DNA from: an uncultured Gammaproteobacteria bacterium
GTDB lineage: Bacteria > Pseudomonadota > Gammaproteobacteria > Pseudomonadales > Pseudohongiellaceae
Assembly (NCBI GenBank): GCA_913054495.1
Contig: CAJXIY010000008.1
Span: 1-58,936, forward strand
Length of the DNA: 58,936 bases
Reading direction: 5' to 3'
The position numbers and the translations under genes are program-made. Positions 1,759-35,822 of this stretch are shown here, piece by piece. Each line of letters opens with the position of its first letter. Within the stretch, counting starts at the first letter, position 1. Under the pieces are notes generated by a model. It worked only from the letters and a program-made list of their open reading frames with translations, ran no database searches and had not been told where the DNA came from.

Positions 1759-3726
1759 TTACTTGTAGTAAGCCAGGGCGCCCGGGGCAAAATGTCTCGG
1801 CATCGCAGGTGGGTAAGCGTTGGTCCAGAACTCCTTCTTGCCCTGGCAGTTAATCAATGTAGAAATCCCTTCCCGAGCGGCGAGTTCGTAACTGCGTTCG
1901 AGTGCTGGCATAAACTGTTCGGCACTGGTGACATATTCGCCATTGCAGCCCAGCGCCTCGGCAATTTTATCGTAGCGAAGATTTTCCTGAAACAGATACA
2001 TATGCTGGGCCCGCACCGCACCTCTGCCGGCACCGGAGGTCCACACGCCCCAGGCATTATTGTTATACACGATCATGACCGCGGGAATACGGTACTTACC
2101 CAGGGTGTCGAACTCCATGATGGAATAGGCGACACCGGCATCACCGGTAATGCCCACGACTGGCGAGCCCTTAAACGGGGCCTGGGGACCGACACCATTC
2201 TGTACCGCCGCACCGACACCGACCGTGTAACCAATATCGGGTCCAATGGCTCCATACTGATAGGCACCATTACAGATCTGCCCAGGGCGAAAGGCACGCA
2301 GATAACGCCGGGTATAGCGACCGATGCCGTAGCCCCCTGAGACTACCGTTGTCTGTTCCCGGTCCAAGTCATTGTTATAGAGAAAGTCTCCCAACTGCCT
2401 GCCGATGACGGCGGGATGAATAGAGTCGGTGTCGGCGCTGTACTTCAAACCCAGCTTGTAATATTCCTCGCTCTGCTCGTCGAAGGCATGTCTCGCCGCC
2501 GCTAATTCATCTCGCCAGCTACTGCGGCTGCGCGACGGCAGCGCGTCTTCCAATGCCTGCAGGGCCGCATTTTCCGAACTCACAATACCCAGGTCGATGG
2601 GGACATTACGGCCGATGTCGCTGGCATCCGGATCGATCCGGATCCACTTTGCCTCCGGTCCGAAGGCAAACTCACCGATCGATGGCATACAATACTGGCC
2701 CACCAGGATGACCAGATCCGCGCTGCGAATCGCATCAGGCGCGGTACTGGCAGACAGTGCATGACCGTCTGAAAAATGCCCCCGTTGCGGTGCCGACTCC
2801 ACCACCGCGATGTCGTTCTTCTCAGCCACACGCAACAACGCTTCCCAGGCTTTATCGTAGAACACACCGGTACTGGCAACGATCATGGGCCGCTGCGATC
2901 GTTGGATCATATCCACGGCGCGGCTGATGTCGGCCGGATTAGGGTGGGCCTTGGATTCGGTGCGATATCGAGTCTTGTCGTAGTAGTACTGCAACTCGCC
3001 GGGTTCTTCGAAGCGAGCGCGGGATATCTCGCCCGGAAAATCCAGGTGCACGGGCTTGGGCACACCGGTTTTCAGCTGCCTGAAGGCATAGGCTGCGTAC
3101 TCATAGATTCGGTTAGGTGTGATCAGCCGTTTGCCCCATTTCTTCAGGCCATCGGTCTGGGATTGTTGATAGGCGGTCTGAATTCCGTGTTCGCTGTCAT
3201 CTTCACCGATAGTCTTGTTACTAGCGATCACCAGCAGCGGAGAGCGCGCCGCATTGGCTGCGCCGATGTTCATAATCATATTAGTGAAACCTGGCCCCTC
3301 GGTACCAGATGTCGCCGCGATTTCTCCGGTTACCCGAATAAAACCATCTGCTGCGGAGACCATATTGCCCTCACAGCGTCCACCATAACTGGGAATACCC
3401 TCGGCGGCGATGGCATTGATCATGTTGTAGTTGCCGGGACAGCAGAAGAAACCGGCGACGCCTTCATCGTTACAGAATTTGGCAAATACCTCGGCACCGG
3501 TCATGGGAAAATTTGCCGGTTTTGCTGCCTCGGCGAGGGTCCTGGGAATCTCGTCCGGAATGCGAATCTTCGCCTCATTGGAATCCTGCGCCTCACTGTT
3601 TTCACTCTGCAGCATGGCCGCCGCGCCGGCTCCGGCAAGCGCCGTCCCCTTAATGAAATTCCGACGGGAGACTTTGGCCTCCTCCGCGGTGATGTCCGAC
3701 TTCCTCTTCTTATTTTCAGTGGCCAT
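1759..3726 (-). CDS. Tat-signal thiamine-diphosphate enzyme (acetolactate-synthase-like)
   Basis: A 655-residue protein of the TPP-dependent decarboxylase/acetolactate synthase superfamily. The three expected domains are present: an N-terminal pyrimidine-binding domain with the catalytic-type glutamate in GGRCEGNMV and the GTEGPGFTN loop, a central domain, and a C-terminal pyrophosphate domain with GDAG and, about 25 residues later, YNNNAWG (GDG-X-NN motif, second G replaced by A). The family is normally cytosolic, yet residues 20-26 read SRRNFIK followed by an alanine-rich hydrophobic stretch, a textbook Tat signal. The start ATG has GAGGAAA upstream. It follows a cytochrome c gene by 17 bases in an apparent operon with MBL-fold and cyclase hydrolases. 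The reaction could be decarboxylation or oxidation of a 2-oxo acid, carboligation, or C-C cleavage; the sequence does not decide. Periplasmic location with electrons passed to the cytochrome is an inference. Confidence 0.85.
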
Positions 3727-3743
3727 CAGGGTTTCCTCAAGAG

Positions 3744-4154
3744 TTATTTTTGTTGCGGTCGGCTTGCTTGTGGTCCGATATTCAAAACATGGGCAACAAT
3801 CTGCCAGATTACCTCATCACTGAGCTCGGCTTTAAAAGGTGGCATCTCCAGCCCGGCACCAAATTTGATGCTGCTAAAAATATGCAGCGCCGAGCTGCCA
3901 TAGTACCACGAGCCGGGGGCGGTCAAATCCGCCGCAATATAGTCGATATTGGCCAAGGCTCTACCATCGGCGTCGTGACACTGTTGGCAGTTAATTAGAT
4001 AATGACTCTTGCCGACGACCGCCGCGGCCTTGGAAAACGCCATTGGGTCTGCCTCCGACGGCATCTCGGCTCCGTGAAGCGACGACGAAAACAACAGCAG
4101 CGCAGTCCAGACACCGGTAAACCTGATGATTACTCCCCTGCTAATGCCAGGCAT
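3744..4154 (-). CDS. small c-type cytochrome
   Basis: A 136-residue exported monoheme cytochrome c. The N-terminus has a hydrophobic signal segment (residues 8-28, cleavage near HGA-EM). The heme site CQQCH is at residues 56-60, and GLEMPPF near residue 105 supplies the probable distal methionine ligand of a class I cytochrome. The ATG at 4154 lies two bases after the stop of the upstream MBL gene and the stop is 17 bases before the TPP-enzyme gene, so these are surely cotranscribed. It probably accepts electrons from an enzyme of this operon and passes them to the respiratory chain. The partner is inferred from position only. Confidence 0.85.
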
Positions 4155-4156
4155 CT

Positions 4157-5773
4157 CTATGGTCCGATCAGTCGGGAAAAATCATCCCAAGATACCGCTT
4201 GCCCATGAATGGGAACAATCGTGTCGACTTCGAGACCGAGTCGCTGCACATGGTCATACAGGCTTCGATTGGCCGCATTGGCGGTGGCGGGCAAGGGCTC
4301 TCCATTTAGAGGCGCATCGAACAGGTCCGCCTCGATGAGTATTTTCTCCCCAGGAAGATAGGCCACCAGCATGCCTTCGACATGGGCCAGGGGATGCACA
4401 TAGGATATTTCCATATTGCGCCGATTGTCGGTAAGTACATAGTTTTCTCGTACGGTCTCGTACTGATAGCCCTCGGCCAGTTCCGTAGGTGGCCACAGAC
4501 TTAACATGTCCGGCTCCAATGTCCTTGGTGCATAATTAAGCAAGTCGCGGGTGTAAAAGTCGTAATTCTTCCAGTGGGTAATGATGGTGGCGCCAATATG
4601 CATATAGGTGCGCAAACCACCGATATGATCATGGTGTTGATGGGTGTTGATCAGGAAACGAACCGGCTTGTCCGGAATCAATTTTACGATTTCATCGAGG
4701 ACTGCAAGATTGCGCCGCTCATTCAGGGGCGCTTCCACCACCGCAATATAGTTATCGAACTCCACGACGACGCTATTATGGGAGCCGCCGCCGAATAGCC
4801 ACACGCCCTCGGCCAGCTCTTCGATATTAATCTGCACGGGAAAACTGGCCCGTCTCACTATGGCTGGCACCGTAACCGGGTCCGAGCACACATTGGCCTG
4901 GATATTCCGCTGCTGCCCACCGTAGGCGTTATGCCCCGCATTGATACTCTGAGTCTGGTAGTTGTCGTCCCAGCCGGTATGGGAGTGCCACACAGTGGGA
5001 AAGCGAATACCATCGCCAAGATCGATATAGCTGTCGTTGCTGAATTCGTGTTCGTAATTGGTGTCACCCAGCACCGGATCAGGCACCCAGGTGTGGATTC
5101 GTTGCAGTAGATTCTGCGCATTGATGGTGGCGTCGACCCGGTATTTTCCCATCACGGTAATGGAAACCACGGCCATTTTTTCGGGATTAACGGTGGCGCC
5201 GTCGCGACCCATCTCCCCCAGTTCCCAACGCCAGCTCGCCCTGGGATTGGCGCCCGGCAACATCGCCGCCTTCAAAAAACCGTGGGGATTGATCCACATA
5301 TCGAGCTGCCAGCGCTGGGCATCATCGCTTGGTGCCGCGATAGCCTCACCATTGACCCCATCCTGGTGCCAGGCGTAATCGCCATTGACCATAAACGACT
5401 GCCGTACTTCTTTTTGAATAGCCGTTCCACCCTTCCAACCCAGGCCGTACTTCCAAGCAGCCGGATTATTACCCGGTTCCCGGTCGAAACGCTCCAGCAT
5501 GGTGCCGGCTCCCCAATTCATCACCCGGGTGTAATTTCGCAACGGTTCACCCCGTGGCCAATCTACCTCGTATCCGTTCAGGCGCTGTTGGCCCACCATG
5601 CCCGCATAAGCACTGCCAGAAATACTGACGCAATCCAGGCGATCGGTACCGATGGCGTCGGCGGCTGCCCGCAACACCGGATAGGGGTCGATAAATCCCG
5701 GCCCCAGCCCTTGCGCGCACAGCTCACTAATAAAAACTGCCAGCAGAGCTACCAGGTGAGATCGATTTGTCAT
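4157..5773 (-). CDS. exported metallo-beta-lactamase-fold hydrolase
   Basis: I place the start at the ATG at 5773, which gives a Sec signal peptide (MTNRSHLVALLAVFISELCA) and a 538-residue protein; a longer reading from 5887 would overlap the cyclase gene and bury the signal. The N-terminal 300 residues are of unknown fold. The C-terminal part has the metallo-beta-lactamase metal motif THQHHDHIGG near residue 375, a later histidine (VHPLAHVEG) and the aspartate strand ILIEADLFD, then a final histidine in VPIHGQ. This arrangement suits a dinuclear metal hydrolase acting on a lactone, thioester or ester. It lies between the cyclase and cytochrome genes in the catabolic run. The cyclase and MBL proteins together could open and cleave a cyclic substrate, which is inference. 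Confidence 0.8.
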   Translation of the reverse strand: MTNRSHLVALLAVFISELCAQGLGPGFIDPYPVLRAAADAIGTDRLDCVSISGSAYAGMVGQQRLNGYEVDWPRGEPLRNYTRVMNWGAGTMLERFDREPGNNPAAWKYGLGWKGGTAIQKEVRQSFMVNGDYAWHQDGVNGEAIAAPSDDAQRWQLDMWINPHGFLKAAMLPGANPRASWRWELGEMGRDGATVNPEKMAVVSITVMGKYRVDATINAQNLLQRIHTWVPDPVLGDTNYEHEFSNDSYIDLGDGIRFPTVWHSHTGWDDNYQTQSINAGHNAYGGQQRNIQANVCSDPVTVPAIVRRASFPVQINIEELAEGVWLFGGGSHNSVVVEFDNYIAVVEAPLNERRNLAVLDEIVKLIPDKPVRFLINTHQHHDHIGGLRTYMHIGATIITHWKNYDFYTRDLLNYAPRTLEPDMLSLWPPTELAEGYQYETVRENYVLTDNRRNMEISYVHPLAHVEGMLVAYLPGEKILIEADLFDAPLNGEPLPATANAANRSLYDHVQRLGLEVDTIVPIHGQAVSWDDFSRLIGP

Positions 5774-28814: not shown

Positions 28815-31718
28815 ATGGTCAACGGCAGCAAAAGTGCGTTAGCGACTCGGCTACGGCGAGAGCTTCAGGGTGATGTGTACTTCGATGATTTCAGTCGCGG
28901 TCGCTACAGCACCGACGCCTCTATCTATCAGATACAGCCCATCGGCGTTACCGTGCCGAGAAACGCAGAGGACGTGCAGACCGCGCTGCAGATAGCGGTT
29001 GACGAGGGCATTCCGGTATTACCCCGCGGAGCCGGCACTTCGCAGACTGGTCAGGCCATCGGTGAGGCCCTGATCATGGACACCACGCGATACCTCAACC
29101 AAGTGCTGGAATTCGACGCCGAAAACCGCACCGTATGTGTACAACCGGGCATGGTGCTGGATCAACTCAACAATTATCTAAAACCCCACGGCTTGTTTTT
29201 CCCCGTGGATGTATCCACCGCCAATCGCGCTACCCTCGGTGGCATGGCCGGCAATAACAGTTGCGGCTCACGCTCTATCCGCTATGGCAACATGGTACAC
29301 AACGTGCGCGCCATCGATGCCCTGATGGCGGATGGCAGCGAGGTCCAATTCAATTCCCTGGCTTCGAGACAAGTCAATGGGGAAAACGCCAGTCATGCCG
29401 AGTTATTCAACAAATTGCTTGATCTCGGAGCAAGAGAGGCCGCGGAGATAGCGCAACGCTTTCCAAATCTGTTGCGCAGAGTGGGTGGTTACAACATCGA
29501 CGTACTCACCAAAGATAAACCTAACATGTCTCACTTGCTGGTAGGATCGGAAGGCACCCTTGCCTTCTTCCAGCGCATACACCTGAACCTGCAAGTCATA
29601 CCAGAACATAAGGTGTTGGGCGTGTGTCACTTTCCCAGTTTTTACAAGGCGATGGATGCCACTCAGCACATCGTCGAACTCAATCCCTCGGCAGTTGAGC
29701 TGGTGGATCGCACCATGATTAACCTGGCCCGGGATATTCCCATGTATGCGGCCATAGTCGATCGCTTCGTGCAGGGCGAGCCCGAAGCCTTGCTGCTGGT
29801 TGAGTTTGCCGGTGAGGAACAGGCCCAGCAACTACAGAGCATGAAGCAGCTGGTTGATCTCATGGCTGAGCTGGGCTTCCCCGACGCAGTGGTGGAGGCA
29901 ACTGACACTGAATTTCAGCAATCGATCTGGGAGGTACGAAAATCCGGTCTCAATATCATGATGTCGATGAAAGGTGACGGCAAGCCCGTCTCATTCATCG
30001 AAGACTGTGCCGTCGATCTCAAGGATCTCGCCGAATACACAAGGCGGCTGACGGACATCTTTCACAAACACGGGACAACCGGCACCTTTTATGCCCATGC
30101 CTCTGTTGGCTGCCTGCATGTGCGCCCCATACTTAATATGAAGGAAGCATCCGGCGCCACCAAGATGCGTGCCATTGTCGAAGAAACCCTGGAAATGGTA
30201 CGAGAATACAAAGGATCTCACTCTGGTGAACACGGCGATGGCCTCGCCAGATCGGAATTTCATGAATCCATGTTCGGACGCCGGATGGTGGCATCGTTCG
30301 AAGAAATCAAGGACAGCTTCGACCCGGCAGGCACCTTCAATCCAGGCAAGATTGTGCGTGCCTCGAAGATGGACGATCGCGATCTGTTCCGTTTCGCACC
30401 GGGTTATGCCGCCCAGCCCATAGCGACAACCATGGACTGGTCGGCCTGGGGTGGTTTCAACCGGGCCATCGAAATGTGTAACAACAACGGCGCCTGCCGT
30501 AAGGCCGATGTTGCGGTTATGTGTCCCTCATATCGGGTCACCGGTGAAGAGCAGCACCTGACACGGGGTCGTGCTAACAGCCTGAGACTCGCTATCAGCG
30601 GGCAGCTTGGCGCCGATGCGCTGGTGTCAGATGCCATGTTCGAGACCATGGAGCTGTGCGTTAGCTGCAAGGGGTGTAAACGGGAATGTCCAACCGGCGT
30701 GGACATGGCCAAGATGAAGATCGAGTTCCTGCACCAGTACTACGGAAAACACAGATTGCCGATAAAAGATTACCTGGTGGCCTTCCTGCCTCGCTACGCC
30801 TATTGGTCAGGAAATTTTTCTGTCCTGCTGAACCTGCGGGATCAGATTCCCGGACTGGCTAAATTGTCTGAATTGTTACTGGGTTTCAGCAGTCGGCGCC
30901 GACTACCGCGATGGCGACGAGATCAATTCAATGCCGAGAAAGAGATTTCACAACAAGCCCCAGTCGAGGAAAATGCAAGGGAAGTCGTGCTGTTAGTGGA
31001 CACCTTCAACGGCTGTTTCGAACCGGAAAACGCGCGAGCTGCGTTGGCGGTGCTGACTGCCGCCGGCTACAAGGTTCGATGTCCGAGGCCACTCGATAAG
31101 GGTCGACCCCTGTGTTGTGGACGCACCTTCCTCAGCGGCGGACTGGTCAACGAGGCACGGGTTGAGGCCGAAAGAATGATCGATACGCTGATGCCGTTTG
31201 TCGAGCGTGGAGTGCCGATCATCGGATTGGAACCCTCATGCCTGTTGACGTTACGTGATGAATTTCCATCCCTGCTGCCGGGGGCCGACACTGACGAACT
31301 GGCCGAAAATGCCTTTCTGCTGGAAGAATTCCTCGCCGCCGAACATGGGAAAGGTCGATTACATCTAAAGCTTAAGCCCCTGCCCATAAAGCAAGCCCTG
31401 TTACACGGCCATTGCCACCAGAAAGCCTTCGATGTCATGTCTTCGGTACAACAGGTGTTGGCGCTGATACCCGATCTCGAGCTTGAAACTATTAAATCTG
31501 GTTGCTGCGGTATGGCCGGCGCGTTTGGTTACGACGCCAAACACTACGAGATATCCATGAAGATGGGAGAACTGAATCTCCTGCCGGCGGTGAGGGCGGC
31601 GGATGCAGATACTCTCATAATAGCCGACGGCACCAGCTGCAGGAATCAAATACGCGACGGCACCGGCCGAGAAGCCATGCACGTAGCAAGAGTACTAGAA
31701 ATGGCCCTTTCTGGATAA
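28815..31718 (+). CDS. FAD-linked oxidase with Fe-S and CCG domains (D-2-hydroxyacid dehydrogenase-like)
   Basis: A 967-residue fusion. Residues about 30-240 form a PCMH-type FAD-binding domain (PRGAGTSQTGQ, GGMAGNNSCGSRS), then the FAD-oxidase C domain to about 530 with SGEHGDGLARSEF. Two 4Fe-4S sites follow: CNNNGACRKADVAVMCPSYR near 554 and CVSCKGCKRECPTG near 614. The C-terminal third holds CCG motifs (CCGRTF, SGCCGMAGAFGY near 895) that bind further clusters. The layout matches the long D-lactate/D-2-hydroxyglutarate dehydrogenase (YdiJ-like) type. It probably feeds electrons from a D-2-hydroxy acid to the quinone pool at the inner face of the membrane. The next genes are a PLP enzyme, a GntP permease and a glyoxylate aminotransferase. 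Confidence 0.88.
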   Translation: MVNGSKSALATRLRRELQGDVYFDDFSRGRYSTDASIYQIQPIGVTVPRNAEDVQTALQIAVDEGIPVLPRGAGTSQTGQAIGEALIMDTTRYLNQVLEFDAENRTVCVQPGMVLDQLNNYLKPHGLFFPVDVSTANRATLGGMAGNNSCGSRSIRYGNMVHNVRAIDALMADGSEVQFNSLASRQVNGENASHAELFNKLLDLGAREAAEIAQRFPNLLRRVGGYNIDVLTKDKPNMSHLLVGSEGTLAFFQRIHLNLQVIPEHKVLGVCHFPSFYKAMDATQHIVELNPSAVELVDRTMINLARDIPMYAAIVDRFVQGEPEALLLVEFAGEEQAQQLQSMKQLVDLMAELGFPDAVVEATDTEFQQSIWEVRKSGLNIMMSMKGDGKPVSFIEDCAVDLKDLAEYTRRLTDIFHKHGTTGTFYAHASVGCLHVRPILNMKEASGATKMRAIVEETLEMVREYKGSHSGEHGDGLARSEFHESMFGRRMVASFEEIKDSFDPAGTFNPGKIVRASKMDDRDLFRFAPGYAAQPIATTMDWSAWGGFNRAIEMCNNNGACRKADVAVMCPSYRVTGEEQHLTRGRANSLRLAISGQLGADALVSDAMFETMELCVSCKGCKRECPTGVDMAKMKIEFLHQYYGKHRLPIKDYLVAFLPRYAYWSGNFSVLLNLRDQIPGLAKLSELLLGFSSRRRLPRWRRDQFNAEKEISQQAPVEENAREVVLLVDTFNGCFEPENARAALAVLTAAGYKVRCPRPLDKGRPLCCGRTFLSGGLVNEARVEAERMIDTLMPFVERGVPIIGLEPSCLLTLRDEFPSLLPGADTDELAENAFLLEEFLAAEHGKGRLHLKLKPLPIKQALLHGHCHQKAFDVMSSVQQVLALIPDLELETIKSGCCGMAGAFGYDAKHYEISMKMGELNLLPAVRAADADTLIIADGTSCRNQIRDGTGREAMHVARVLEMALSG

Positions 31719-31725
31719 AGGGGGG

Positions 31726-31825
31726 TAAATGGGGTCAGAGTAAAAATACAGTAGTTTCGATCACCTTGGTTTGATTCGTCAAAGATCATAGCAAAACTAC
31801 TGTATTTTTACTCTGACCCCATTTA
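31726..31825. repeat. 100-base palindromic element, copy A (GGGGTCAGAGTAAAAAT type)
   Basis: Arms of 32 bases (31726-31757 and 31794-31825) are perfectly complementary, around a 36-base loop. Each arm contains TGGGGTCAGAGTAAAAAT. Elements starting with this kind of sequence are common in gammaproteobacteria and are thought to be spread by REP-associated Y1 transposases. It lies just upstream of the DSD1-family gene. Confidence 0.85.
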
Positions 31826-31867
31826 TCCTCCTGCCATGTCCCGCCGCCGATTAATACGAGGTGCACC

Positions 31868-33109
31868 GTGAATTCAAACTCCCTCTCCCGCCGTCATTTC
31901 CTGCAAGCCAGTGGCACCGCTGCCATCTGGGCTCCATCTTCAGTCATGGCTTACACTTCTGCAGAGATGCAGGCGTTCTACGCCAGTGGAGAGATGTCTG
32001 TCAACGTTTCCAAGTGGGAGCTGGACACGCCGGCGCTGTGTGTCGATCTGGATCTGTTGGAGGCCAACCTGGACAAAATGGCCCAGACCATGTCCAGCAA
32101 TGGCATCGCCAGCCGACCCCATGCGAAGACTCACAAAACTCCAATCATTGCGCAGATGCAAATGGACCGAGGCTCGGTTGGTATTTGTACCGCCAAGGTA
32201 AGCGAAGCGGAAGCCATGTTCCAAAATGGCATCGATCGAATACTCAATACCACCGGCAATGTAACGCCGACAAAGATCAACCGCGCCATGGACCTGCGGG
32301 CGCTGTGCCCGGGTTTTATTCAGGCCACGGATGCGCCCGAGAACGCACGGCTGTTATCCGCAGCTGCCGTGGCCAAGGGACTCGTTGCCGATGTGGTGGT
32401 GGATGTCGATCCGGGGATTCGGCGTACCGGAATTCCCTTCGGTCAGCCTGCCCTGCAACTGGCACAACTGGTCGATCAACTGCCGGGTTTACGACTAATG
32501 GGCATGCTGTGTTATGACGCTGCGGCGCAACATGTGGTCGGCTTCGAGACCCGCAAGGCGCAGACACTCGAGCGGATGACTGCTGCCACTGACACCTTCG
32601 AGTTGATGCAGGCCTCGGGTTTAAACACCGAAATATTCAGTGGCGGCGGCACCGGCACTTACAATATAGACCATGGCACCAGGGGCATGACTGATGTACA
32701 GGTGGGCAGTTATGTTTTCATGGACGCCCAGTATATTGGTATCGGCGGTGAGACAGACCGCGAGGTTTATTCCGACTTTCACACCTCATTGACAATCATG
32801 GCCACCGTACTCAACGCCCAACACGCCGGCCGTGCCACCTCCGATGCCGGAGCCAAAGCCTGCACCATCAATCAGCCCTGGCCAATAATCAAGGGCGAGA
32901 GCGGCATGCATTATCGCTCCGGATCCGACGAATTCGGCACCATCATCTATGAAGATGATCCGTCCCGTAATTACAAGGTGGGCGACAAACTGGAACTCAT
33001 CGTTTCTCACTGCGATCCGGTGGTTAATCTCTACGATCAGATGTACGCGATTCGTAATGACCGGGTAGAAGCGGTATGGCCTATATCTGCCCGCGGCATG
33101 TCCGCTTAG
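31868..33109 (+). CDS. Tat-signal DSD1-family PLP enzyme (D-threonine aldolase / D-serine dehydratase-like)
   Basis: A 413-residue fold-III PLP enzyme with a GTG start after GAGGTG. Residues 8-14 read SRRHFLQ followed by a hydrophobic alanine stretch, a Tat signal unusual for this family. The PLP lysine is in RPHAKTHKT, with further family motifs FSGGGTGTYN and the zinc-binding histidine-cysteine pair VSHCDPVVNLYDQ near the C-terminus. Members cleave D-3-hydroxy amino acids such as D-threonine to glycine and an aldehyde, or dehydrate D-serine, D-threonine or D-3-hydroxyaspartate. Periplasmic action would let the cell use D-amino acids outside. The gene is exactly bracketed by two copies of one palindromic element. 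Confidence 0.87.
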   Translation: MNSNSLSRRHFLQASGTAAIWAPSSVMAYTSAEMQAFYASGEMSVNVSKWELDTPALCVDLDLLEANLDKMAQTMSSNGIASRPHAKTHKTPIIAQMQMDRGSVGICTAKVSEAEAMFQNGIDRILNTTGNVTPTKINRAMDLRALCPGFIQATDAPENARLLSAAAVAKGLVADVVVDVDPGIRRTGIPFGQPALQLAQLVDQLPGLRLMGMLCYDAAAQHVVGFETRKAQTLERMTAATDTFELMQASGLNTEIFSGGGTGTYNIDHGTRGMTDVQVGSYVFMDAQYIGIGGETDREVYSDFHTSLTIMATVLNAQHAGRATSDAGAKACTINQPWPIIKGESGMHYRSGSDEFGTIIYEDDPSRNYKVGDKLELIVSHCDPVVNLYDQMYAIRNDRVEAVWPISARGMSA

Positions 33110-33114
33110 AGCTG

Positions 33115-33218
33115 GATAAATGGGGTCAGAGTAAAAATACAGTAGTTTCGAGCACTACGATTTGGTTTGTCATATATCATGGCAAAACTACTGTATTTTT
33201 ACTCTGACCCCATTTATC
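33115..33218. repeat. 104-base palindromic element, copy B
   Basis: Arms of 34 bases (33115-33148 and 33185-33218) are perfectly complementary around a 36-base loop. The arms are the same sequence as in copy A, and the loop has the same length but differs at about a third of positions. It begins five bases after the stop of the DSD1-family gene. A further partial GACCCCATTTAT follows at 33219-33230. Confidence 0.85.
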
Positions 33219-33230
33219 GACCCCATTTAT

Positions 33231-34592
33231 CTAAATCAATCCCACAACCCACATGACACAGACCACGGCGAATGACGTTAAACCACCCACCAGGGTCGCA
33301 CCGCCATAGCTGAACACAGCGTCGGAGACACTCAACTTGGTGAGCGAAGTACAAACCCAGAAGTAACTGCTGTTCACGTACTTGATAATGACCGAACCAC
33401 TGGCACCCGCCAGCATCGCCGCTTCCGGTGATAAGCCAAGACCTCCCAACATCGGCGCCACCAGTGAGGCCGCGGTGATGACACCGACAGTTGTGGAACC
33501 CGTGATCAGGTTACCAATGATACCTATTAGAAAAGGCAGCATGATCGTTGGCAGGCCATATTCGGTGAACAACATGGCGATGTAATCTACTGCTGGCGTG
33601 CCGCGCAAGATGGCACTCAGCGAACCGCCGAGGCCGGTCACAACCAGGATCATGGCCGAAGTTCTTAACGCCGCTTCCACCCATTCGTCCTTGGCTTTGT
33701 CCTTCGCATCCTCACTCTTGATGTTGCGATAGGCCAACCACACGCCGATGGATAGGGCGATAACCGGCCAGCCCAGATAGGAGAAAATTGTTCGCAGAAT
33801 ATGTCCCTCATCGAACAACAGACTGACGACACTCTGGGTACCGATTAGTACGATTGGGATAAGAATAGGTGTGTAGGAGCTTAACGTACTGGGTAGGTCC
33901 TCCTCGGCATTGTCAAAATTGCGACCATCGAATTCATCCGAGGCCTGGGTCTTGATTCTTGGACCGGCAACGTAGACTCCCCACGCCCAACAACTCATGG
34001 ATCCGAACAGGCAGGCTATGCTGCCGAAAATAATAGTCTTGCCGATATCCGCACCCAGCAGCGCCGCTGCTGCCAGTGGCCCTGGCGTGGGCGGTACGAT
34101 GGCATGGGTTAGTTGCAGTGCACCGACCAGGCCGGTGGACATCACGGCGATGCCCACACCCATAGACTTGGCGGCGGAATGTACCAGGGGATTCAAGATG
34201 ACATAAGCCACGTCCGAAAAAATCGCGACGCCAATGACGAACCCGGTCATGGTCAATGCCAGCGGCATTCGATTCGAACCAATCAACTTCACCATAGATC
34301 GAGTGATGACCTGTATGGCGCCAGTGTGCTTTAGCGCTTCGGCAATAATGGAACCAAGCACTATCACTACGCCGATCGATCCTAAGGTATTACCGAAGCC
34401 GGTTTCGAAGGCGTCGATGAAATTATTGCGTTGAATTCCAGGTAAGACACCGAACAGAAGAATGGGGATTAGCAGCGCGAAAAATACGTGCCACTTCCAT
34501 TTGGCAATCAGGAAAAGCAAGAGAAAAATGACGACTGCGAAACCAATCAGAGATAAAGCCGGGCTTGTAGTAACCGCTGTTGCTGGATCCAT
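33231..34592 (-). CDS. GntP-family organic acid permease
   Basis: A 453-residue membrane transporter with 12 or so hydrophobic segments and the GntP-family signatures HAIVPPTPGP, ITGSTTVGVITAAS and a C-terminal YFWVCTSL. The ATG follows GGAG. The family imports gluconate and related hydroxy acids with protons. It is the second gene of a minus-strand pair with the aminotransferase at 34644, 51 bases apart. Together with the FAD-oxidase this suggests uptake and oxidation of a hydroxy acid. The exact substrate is not readable. Confidence 0.9.
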   Translation of the reverse strand: MDPATAVTTSPALSLIGFAVVIFLLLFLIAKWKWHVFFALLIPILLFGVLPGIQRNNFIDAFETGFGNTLGSIGVVIVLGSIIAEALKHTGAIQVITRSMVKLIGSNRMPLALTMTGFVIGVAIFSDVAYVILNPLVHSAAKSMGVGIAVMSTGLVGALQLTHAIVPPTPGPLAAAALLGADIGKTIIFGSIACLFGSMSCWAWGVYVAGPRIKTQASDEFDGRNFDNAEEDLPSTLSSYTPILIPIVLIGTQSVVSLLFDEGHILRTIFSYLGWPVIALSIGVWLAYRNIKSEDAKDKAKDEWVEAALRTSAMILVVTGLGGSLSAILRGTPAVDYIAMLFTEYGLPTIMLPFLIGIIGNLITGSTTVGVITAASLVAPMLGGLGLSPEAAMLAGASGSVIIKYVNSSYFWVCTSLTKLSVSDAVFSYGGATLVGGLTSFAVVCVMWVVGLI

Positions 34593-34643
34593 GGAATCTC
34601 CGTTAGTTGTTCTTATTAGTTGTTCTTGTAACTCGTTCTTCCA

Positions 34644-35822
34644 CTATTGGGACGCAAGATAATCCATAGCTGCGATCACGCCACCCTTGTTATGGGGGAT
34701 CGCAGCCAGACCCAGACCCATCTCAACACCAGCCAGGGTACCTGCCAGCATCAAATCATTAAAGTCGCCGAGGTGCCCGATGCGAAATACCTTGCCTTTT
34801 ACCTTGCCCAGGCCCATACCCAACGACATATTGAAACGCTCCAGAATAATGGCGCGCAAGCTATCGGCATCGTGTCCTTCGGGCAAAACTACCGCCGTGG
34901 TGGAATTAGAATATTCGTCGGCGTTGAGACAGAGATTCTCCAGACCCCAGGCCTCAACGGCTAATCGAGTAGCATGGGCCAGGCGCCCATGGCGTTGGAT
35001 TACAGCGTCCATGCCTTCTGCATGCAACATGTCCAAAGCTTCATCCAAACCATACAACAGGTTGGTACTCGGCGTGTAGGGGAAATAACCCTGTTGATTA
35101 GGCTCGAGCATCGCCTGCCAACTCCAGTAGGAATGCTGGAATCTCGATGCCTTACTCGCTTCCAGTGCCTTTTCGCTGACAGCGTTAAAACACAGTCCCG
35201 GCGGCAACATCAGTCCTTTCTGCGAACCGCTGATGGTTACATCCACGCCCCAGTCATCGTGGCGCAGCTCAGCGCAGGCTAATGAGGAGACCGCATCCAC
35301 TATAAACAGTGCCGGGTGATTGGCGGCATCCATCGCTGCTCGAATTTGCTTTATCCGACTGGTAGCTCCAGTGGACGTTTCGTTGTGCAGCGCCAGCACT
35401 GCCTTGATTTCATTTCCATTGTCGGCCCGCAATCGTTCTTCGACCACTGCTGGATCGATTCCATGGCGCCAGTCACCAGTAACCCACTCCACTTCCAAAC
35501 CCAGCTTCTCGGCAACATCTTTCCAGAGGATGGCGAAATGCCCGGTCTCGAAAGCTAACACCTTGTCCCTCGGTGACAGAGTATTCAGCAGTGCAGACTC
35601 CCAGCCGCCGGTGCCGGATGCTGGGAAGATGAATACAGGAGAGCTGGTTTTGAACACCAGAGCCAGTTTGTCCAGAATCCGCAGTGTCAGCTCGGCGAAC
35701 TCCGAACCACGATGATCGATAGTTGGCTGGGCCATGGCTCGAAGGACTCGATCCGGCACATTAGACGGCCCCGGAATTTGCAGAAAATGTTTACCGGCCC
35801 GGTAAGAGTTTGATTTGGACAT
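34644..35822 (-). CDS. alanine/serine-glyoxylate aminotransferase family protein
   Basis: A 392-residue class V aminotransferase. Motifs include PGPSNVPDRVL at the start, FPASGTGGWESAL, the PLP aspartate strand VDAVSSLAC and the lysine in ISGSQKGLMLPPGL, and IGHLGDFND near the end, all typical of alanine- or serine-glyoxylate aminotransferases. It transfers an amino group to glyoxylate, giving glycine in the cytoplasm. It lies just upstream of GntP in the same direction. With the DSD1 enzyme and FAD oxidase it could process glyoxylate or glycine from D-amino acids. Confidence 0.92.
   Translation of the reverse strand: MSKSNSYRAGKHFLQIPGPSNVPDRVLRAMAQPTIDHRGSEFAELTLRILDKLALVFKTSSPVFIFPASGTGGWESALLNTLSPRDKVLAFETGHFAILWKDVAEKLGLEVEWVTGDWRHGIDPAVVEERLRADNGNEIKAVLALHNETSTGATSRIKQIRAAMDAANHPALFIVDAVSSLACAELRHDDWGVDVTISGSQKGLMLPPGLCFNAVSEKALEASKASRFQHSYWSWQAMLEPNQQGYFPYTPSTNLLYGLDEALDMLHAEGMDAVIQRHGRLAHATRLAVEAWGLENLCLNADEYSNSTTAVVLPEGHDADSLRAIILERFNMSLGMGLGKVKGKVFRIGHLGDFNDLMLAGTLAGVEMGLGLAAIPHNKGGVIAAMDYLASQ

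Follow-up and report, generated by a model that had tools for sequence, protein, structure and literature searches.

Two perfect palindromes of a TIRtron-type family around a relocated DSD1-family gene

In TIRtrons, as they are set out in the sections of Di Nocera et al. (2013, PMC3733652) drawn on here, RAYT-like Y1 genes (TIRYTs) lie between long TIRs, many of which carry the motif GGGGWSAS. The TIR families are moderately abundant, some are self-complementary, and many occur as dimers or in clusters. The C-terminal HTH of subclass 2.1 is present in 20 of the 26 published TIRYTs, and the other 6 belong to subclasses 2.2 and 2.5. REPINs, in the corresponding parts of Bertels and Rainey (2011, PMC3116915), are short extragenic inverted doublets that form hairpins, are linked to Y1 transposases (RAYTs), and are clustered or adjacent. 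For such a transposase class it has been stated that there is no evidence of mobility (PMC6006769). TIMEs are derived from the Tn3 family and have target duplications of 5-6 bp; in a TIME-COMP, two of these miniature inverted-repeat elements flank a DNA segment and mobilise it (Szuplewska et al. 2014, PMC4133298). By title and the start of the abstract, a full-text literature search with the motif TGGGGTCAGAGT returned no paper on the subject, and none of the matches listed reports genes carried by REPIN/RAYT elements; neither result proves absence from print.

The locus described here lies in a window of 58,936 nucleotides, which is the whole stretch of DNA that was analysed. An earlier note had reported a DSD1-family gene bracketed by two perfect palindromes with the same arms and diverged loops, and this description is confirmed (Table 1). 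The perfect arms of copy A, 32 nt each (31726-31757 and 31794-31825), enclose a loop at 31758-31793, and extension of this copy to the limits in the table gives 39-nt arms at 95%. Those of copy B, 34 nt each (33115-33148 and 33185-33218), enclose a loop at 33149-33184. Both loops are 36 nt long and differ from each other at 10 of 36 positions, while the arms are identical over 32 nt. The bracket is tight: the TAA stop of FADox is 7 bp upstream of the perfect arm of copy A, 42 bases separate copy A from the GTG start of DSD1 at 31868, and 5 bases lie between the DSD1 TAG stop (33107-33109) and copy B. Folded as RNA, A reaches -67 kcal/mol (z -13.3) and B -58.3 kcal/mol (z -12.1), and in each case 0 of 200 shuffles is as good. 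An Rfam scan of the window finds nothing at gathering scores, and no target-site duplication is seen by eye at the outer flanks in the window, ...GGATAAAGGGGGG and CGACCCCATTTATC... Partial tandem repeats of the arm's outermost 11-20 nt abut elements in the window (33219-33230) and at four other loci (L006, L064, L069, and L071), as if elements insert beside existing ends.

Table 1. Features of the window around the DSD1-family gene
Feature	Coordinates	Strand	Remarks
FADox, FAD/4Fe-4S oxidase (YdiJ/GlcD + GlpC-like halves)	28815..31718	+	left neighbour
Palindrome copy A	31719..31832	.	imperfect 39-nt arms; orthologue at sister-species locus L203
DSD1-family gene	31868..33109	+	413 aa, GTG start, Tat-type N-terminus
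Palindrome copy B	33115..33218	.	not found after DSD1 in L203
GACCCCATTTAT, 12-nt piece of a further arm end	33219..33230	.	abuts GntP stop
GntP-family permease	33231..34592	-	right neighbour, convergent
Class-V aminotransferase	34644..35822	-	third trio member; closest NCBIfam model BhcA

The DSD1 protein contains the Pfam domains Ala_racemase_N and D-ser_dehydrat, and is closest to D-3-hydroxyaspartate and D-threonine aldolases, its best PDB sequence match being the D-3-hydroxyaspartate aldolase 6qkb. Its nearest type is the BhcC-type D-3-hydroxyaspartate aldolase, at 293 bits against a cut-off of 690, and the aminotransferase scores 434.9 bits with BhcA, under the cut-off of 650. A glyoxylate-related cluster at 28815-35822, composed of DSD1, the BhcA-like aminotransferase, the glycolate-oxidase-like FAD enzyme, and the GntP permease, is a possible reading of these resemblances; a Tat-type signal on an aldolase sits oddly with it. 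This signal, noted earlier as rare in the family, is visible as the twin-arginine motif SRRHFLQAS. Since the twin-arginine pattern matches at 20 of the 30 DSD1 loci scanned, the window's own included and a miss not being an absence, the motif is common for DSD1 in the genus.

A count of the arm over the whole genome, proposed in the earlier note, reveals a dispersed family. With up to 2 mismatches, the arm AAATGGGGTCAGAGTAAAA has 58 matches in the window's own genome (31 forward and 27 reverse), against 0 for a control in which the arm is reversed. By hand count, these make up about 36 elements, which lie mostly between genes, many of them just 3' of stop codons; the assembly consists of 201 contigs, several of which end at an arm. 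A slightly shorter arm, with up to 1 mismatch, is found in 18 of 58 genomes (own included) and 2 of 22 genera. An exact scan of genome_contigs with a 23-nt arm gives 47 stretches, whose MAG labels read Gammaproteobacteria, Pseudomonadales, Pseudohongiella, OM182, or just Proteobacteria, with one Rhodospirillaceae; in viral_contigs there is no exact match to this 23-nt arm and, by pattern search, no DSD1 relative. The elements range in form from nearly loop-less palindromes to those with loops of more than 200 nt, and the 63 copies listed from fetched loci, a few rows of which overlap, fall into several length classes, 29 having 44 nt between the outer GGGG ends. A and B are ordinary members of this dispersed family of leftover transposon ends. 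Elsewhere, positions 1-8000 of L227 (PBYU01000013.1) contain seven elements, 5 complete and 2 single arms, that separate consecutive genes within 8 kb, among them glyoxalase-like, CoA-transferase, and HbpS-like genes; of the 55 arm matches in that genome, 12 fall within one 6.8-kb stretch.

The same arms also enclose transposase genes. Relatives and the own genome together provided 31 Y1 loci. At three of these, L178 (G035), L185 (G008), and L186 (G013), a Y1 gene lies between inverted copies of GGGGTCAGAGTAAATATCCAGTAGTTT, the reading frame of L186 ending after 195 residues; at a fourth, L171, the arm is a variant. Three of the 47 stretches (L215, L225, and L229) likewise contain a Y1 gene between two window-type arms. 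These six Y1 elements measure 809-812 bp overall and, counted from GGGG, their inverted ends are perfect over 23-27 nt; comparison of five of the proteins (all but that of L186) gives 59-95% identity among them. The same five proteins match the NCBIfam model REP_Tyr_transpos at 63-70 bits, below the cut-off of 80, and Y1_Tnp (PF01797) is the sole Pfam match of L178 and L229. HVH and a conserved Tyr, which we take to have their usual roles in Y1 transposases, are visible in the sequences. The subclass 2.1 C-terminal HTH is not seen in these five proteins, judged by the NCBIfam models they match (REP_Tyr_transpos, mostly IS200 models). A Y1/REP-associated transposase, which the earlier note had suggested looking for, is thus found between the same inverted arms at six loci elsewhere, and in the own genome none is found with an arm: PF01797 finds 3 places there, none with an arm within 1.5 kb, in an assembly of so many contigs that a copy may be missing. 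Because the arms bracket an ~810-bp Y1 (HUH) transposase gene at six loci, the palindromes are taken as non-autonomous TIRtron-type (TIRYT/RAYT) derivatives. A second Y1 family in the genus (L003, L182, L183, L190, L191, and L193-L196) lies beside another end motif, which reads AGGGTCAGCTCTAATTCTAT or nearly so, and has a DnaA-like C-terminal domain in L003, the one member checked.

Members of the arm family sit in characteristic places. Among 52 elements with both neighbours in view, 19 have a 3' gene end on either side, 29 have a 3' end on one side and a 5' end on the other, and 4 are flanked by 5' ends alone. Measured to neighbouring stop codons, 40 distances out of 67 fall at -3 to 20 bp; these counts cover fetched loci and ORFs of at least 100 aa, include a few overlapping rows, and, for the distances, stand without a shuffled control. 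Elements also cluster above chance. Six start-to-start distances among the roughly 36 hand-counted elements are below 2 kb (on contigs C8, C56, C86, C92, C146, and C152; one partner is degenerate on C146 and on C152). Simulated placements average 0.73 such distances, and 6 is reached in 2 of 20,000 runs.

Some of these elements entered without moving a gene. Of 16 other genomes, 7 (G003, G013, G017, G020, G024, G029, and G035) also have the SurE-like and esterase genes of C56 side by side, and no arm is present at the six of these loci that were checked; in G007, G008, and G025 the two matches are apart or on different contigs. Since these 7 genomes have, next to the SurE-like gene, the same gene that follows the C56 element, this gene is in its normal position and the element entered in place. 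Two elements of G003 flank prpB-prpC (genes named by eye), which presumably lie within an ordinary prp-type gene order, also judged by eye. Therefore, element insertion does occur without gene movement, and these two cases rule out the idea that all genes which adjoin an element or lie within a pair are carried by them. Other single genes of the own genome lie between two elements at C86, C92, and C146. The C86 gene is matched in 1 of 20 other genomes and the C92 gene in 4, and no empty site for either could be found among these relatives; at C107, neither the enclosed genes nor those on either side keep together in relatives, where they are scattered.

The position of DSD1, in turn, is derived. 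DSD1 matches occur in 34 of 58 genomes; with the own genome counted, 30 of the 37 that belong to the same genus have one. The trio of FADox, GntP, and the BhcA-like aminotransferase is uninterrupted in 7 of 14 relatives with full-length FADox (G008, G013, G020, G023, G014, G006, and G022), where 17 to 677 bp separate the FADox stop from the GntP stop and neither DSD1 nor an arm lies between the two genes. In the other seven (G001, G002, G003, G011, G012, G016, and G019), GntP is not seen within about 1.5 kb of FADox, in G002 because the contig ends, and these relatives are uninformative on the junction. Conversely, FADox or GntP lies within 1.5 kb of DSD1 at 0 of 29 other fetched DSD1 loci, some of them cut by contig ends. 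Instead, DSD1 adjoins another FAD oxidase in 7 of 8 relatives inspected (G020, G029, G013, G035, G007, G017, and G024, not G003), with a cytochrome-c-like gene, so named by eye, beyond it. A pair resembling that FAD oxidase/cytochrome-c-like pair at 64-71% lies in the own genome at C1:108026-109755, without DSD1. Since the trio is uninterrupted in seven relatives and DSD1 is placed elsewhere in relatives, the gene has moved here and is a derived arrival at the FADox-GntP junction. In the DSD1 tree, G000 and G003 form a group (99/92) that stands next to the clade of those seven relatives in which DSD1 adjoins the other FAD oxidase; the FADox tree is compatible with it, although the same fork is unresolved there. 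Horizontal import of DSD1 is not needed, given this compatibility, and DSD1 looks native. In a check for the donor site, the DSD1 neighbours of G003 had no match in G000.

A sister species carries the same locus. L203 (JADFIJ010000089.1, MAG B38T3L14), at about 90% nucleotide identity, shows, in this order, FADox (93% aa), an orthologue of palindrome A with its right half tandemly repeated (51 bp), and DSD1 (97% aa), but no palindrome B after DSD1. The right side is rearranged: GntP is absent, and the break falls directly after the DSD1 stop. There, a copper nitrite reductase-cytochrome c gene and then, at the contig end, an NnrS-like gene occupy 3282-5323; between the two, near 5003-5056, the 3' end of DSD1 recurs in degraded form, as seen by eye. 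The loop of A is closer to that of L203's A (5/36 differ) than to that of B (10/36). A and DSD1 are common to both species, B is confined to the window genome, and DSD1 entered the junction before the split. B may have been gained in the window genome, or lost in L203 with the rearrangement that replaced GntP; loss, which would be compatible with one-unit movement, is the reading with fewer events, and gain is the one that fits the habits of the family. Thus, the comparison with related genomes by which the earlier note proposed to judge the unit gives a divided answer, since of the two elements that bracket DSD1 at this site the sister species has one and lacks the other. Over 29880-33109, divergence between the two genomes is 15-25% at about 30780-31379, about 4-5% from 31380, and 2-7% through DSD1. 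Divergence is lower in the block that runs from about 31380 to 33109 than in the remaining FADox, which suggests a recombination block starting inside FADox. A drop in divergence exactly at palindrome A is ruled out, as it falls near 31380, inside FADox.

The earlier note had also proposed that the arms are under selection or conversion, and their slower change is borne out. Between G000 and L203, the arms of A differ at 1 of 66 sites, and both copies of the right arm in L203 match; its loop differs at 5 of 36 (Fisher P=0.02 for arms vs loop), and pooled third codon positions of the two flanking genes are 19% different. The probability of so little change in the arms is 1.3e-5 at this pooled rate, 0.008 at 10%, and 0.002 at the block's four-fold rate of 12%. 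The 44-nt class comprises 19 distinct rows; pairing holds in 91.9% of its cells, and 13 cells are changed on both sides, against a mean of 6.4 and above all 500 shuffles; pairs with both-side changes show no excess (5 against a mean of 3.7, a value reached in 105 of 500 shuffles). The arms may be kept alike through conversion among copies, hairpin-templated correction, of which quasipalindrome template switching is a form, or selection.

How the bracket arose was weighed by judgement, no test having been computed for the odds of the explanations. The account that is probably right as a whole is one of TIRtron-type non-autonomous palindromes, a relocated DSD1, and a later addition of B. In it, A and B are MITE-like TIR repeats of a family whose autonomous form is an ~810-bp element, a Y1 HUH transposase gene of RAYT/TIRYT type enclosed by inverted ends that begin GGGGTCAGAGTAAA and are perfect over 23-27 nt, and that transposase would move the hairpins in trans. 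DSD1 entered the FADox-GntP junction before the split of the window genome and the sister species, and B would be a later addition, placed 3' of both stop codons, that of DSD1 and that of GntP. Insertion step by step, 3' of stop codons around a relocated gene, is on balance the best reading of the bracket itself, although the own genome has no cognate transposase found in it and 3 of 31 Y1 loci bear the arm type. The exact bracket would then exist because the family places itself beside 3' ends and clusters, rather than because the gene was carried as a single unit. The suggestion in the earlier note that the gene was carried between elements therefore survives in part: the seven intact trios argue that DSD1 relocated, and movement of the bracket as one unit is unsupported, L203 having no B.

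Such composite transposition, to which we give perhaps a quarter of our confidence, would have A and B supply, with their outer ends, the two termini of an autonomous element; A-DSD1-B would then have been transferred by the Y1 transposase, in single-stranded form, to the junction of FADox and GntP, and the sister species would later have lost B. It needs the fewest events, the end geometry is that of the autonomous element with DSD1 in place of the transposase gene, both window junctions of the derived insertion coincide with arms, and the break in L203 falls right after the DSD1 stop; the single genes at C86, C92, and C146 and the excess of close pairs agree with it as well. Against it stand the lack of B in L203, the different loops of A and B, the in-place insertions at SurE-esterase and prpB-prpC, and the failure to find a cognate transposase in G000. 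Considerably less probable is recombination through the palindromes, whereby DSD1 with one palindrome, as a circle or fragment, joined a resident palindrome between FADox and GntP. Identical arms with different loops, the 51-bp tandem duplication in L203, and partial tandem arm ends at several copies would follow from it, yet none of the seven relatives with FADox-GntP has a lone palindrome at the junction, the point from which G000 and L203 are less diverged lies within FADox instead of at A, and the arms are short for homologous recombination. The view that the palindromes are functional hairpins, terminators or mRNA stabilisers selected on both sides of the gene and unrelated to transposition, is very improbable. 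The folds are very stable and often 3' of genes, and the arms change slowly, with both-side-changed cells in excess in the 44-nt class, but the arms around transposase genes and the copy number point to a mobile origin, with function as a later use, and B is missing in the sister species. More speculatively, and beyond the favored stepwise reading, TIRtron palindrome pairs might be the ends of single-gene cassettes, with a Y1 HUH transposase moving host metabolic genes between hairpins. Genes so moved would pile up in palindrome-punctuated arrays (the window; C86, C92, and C107 of G000; L227), as an HUH-based counterpart of integron cassette arrays.

A perfect-palindrome family of Pseudohongiella-like MAGs is now tied to a Y1/RAYT-type transposase of the little-studied TIRtron class, and a case is at hand of a metabolic gene moved into a conserved junction that palindromes now mark. 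If the elements carry genes, this would be gene mobilisation by a class said to have no evidence of mobility (PMC6006769); if they do not, a bracketed gene is easily mistaken for a cassette. Set against the described systems, the family resembles TIRtrons, in the sections of PMC3733652 compared, in that the window arms carry GGGGTCAG, which fits GGGGWSAS, a Y1 gene lies between inverted arms, and the TIR family is dispersed. The arm sequence and the Pseudohongiella-like MAG hosts are absent from those sections, and, unlike the TIRtrons described there, the arms here are perfect palindromes with loops from none to more than 200 nt, two copies of which flank a relocated metabolic gene. Like REPINs, as far as described in the parts of PMC3116915 cited above, the elements are inverted hairpin doublets, linked to a Y1 transposase and found in clusters; unlike REPINs, they have GTAG at or near the hairpin foot in 1 of 63 listed elements (L238), and, unlike REPINs/RAYTs, they include six examples of a transposase gene between two arms. 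As in a TIME-COMP, two inverted-repeat elements flank a DNA segment, but, in contrast to TIMEs as presented in PMC4133298, no target duplication is seen at the window palindromes, and movement as one unit is here a candidate reading. Together, these comparisons identify the element well as one of a known, TIRtron-type kind, around a gene whose relocation is real and whose bracket is more likely to have arisen stepwise than to have been carried.
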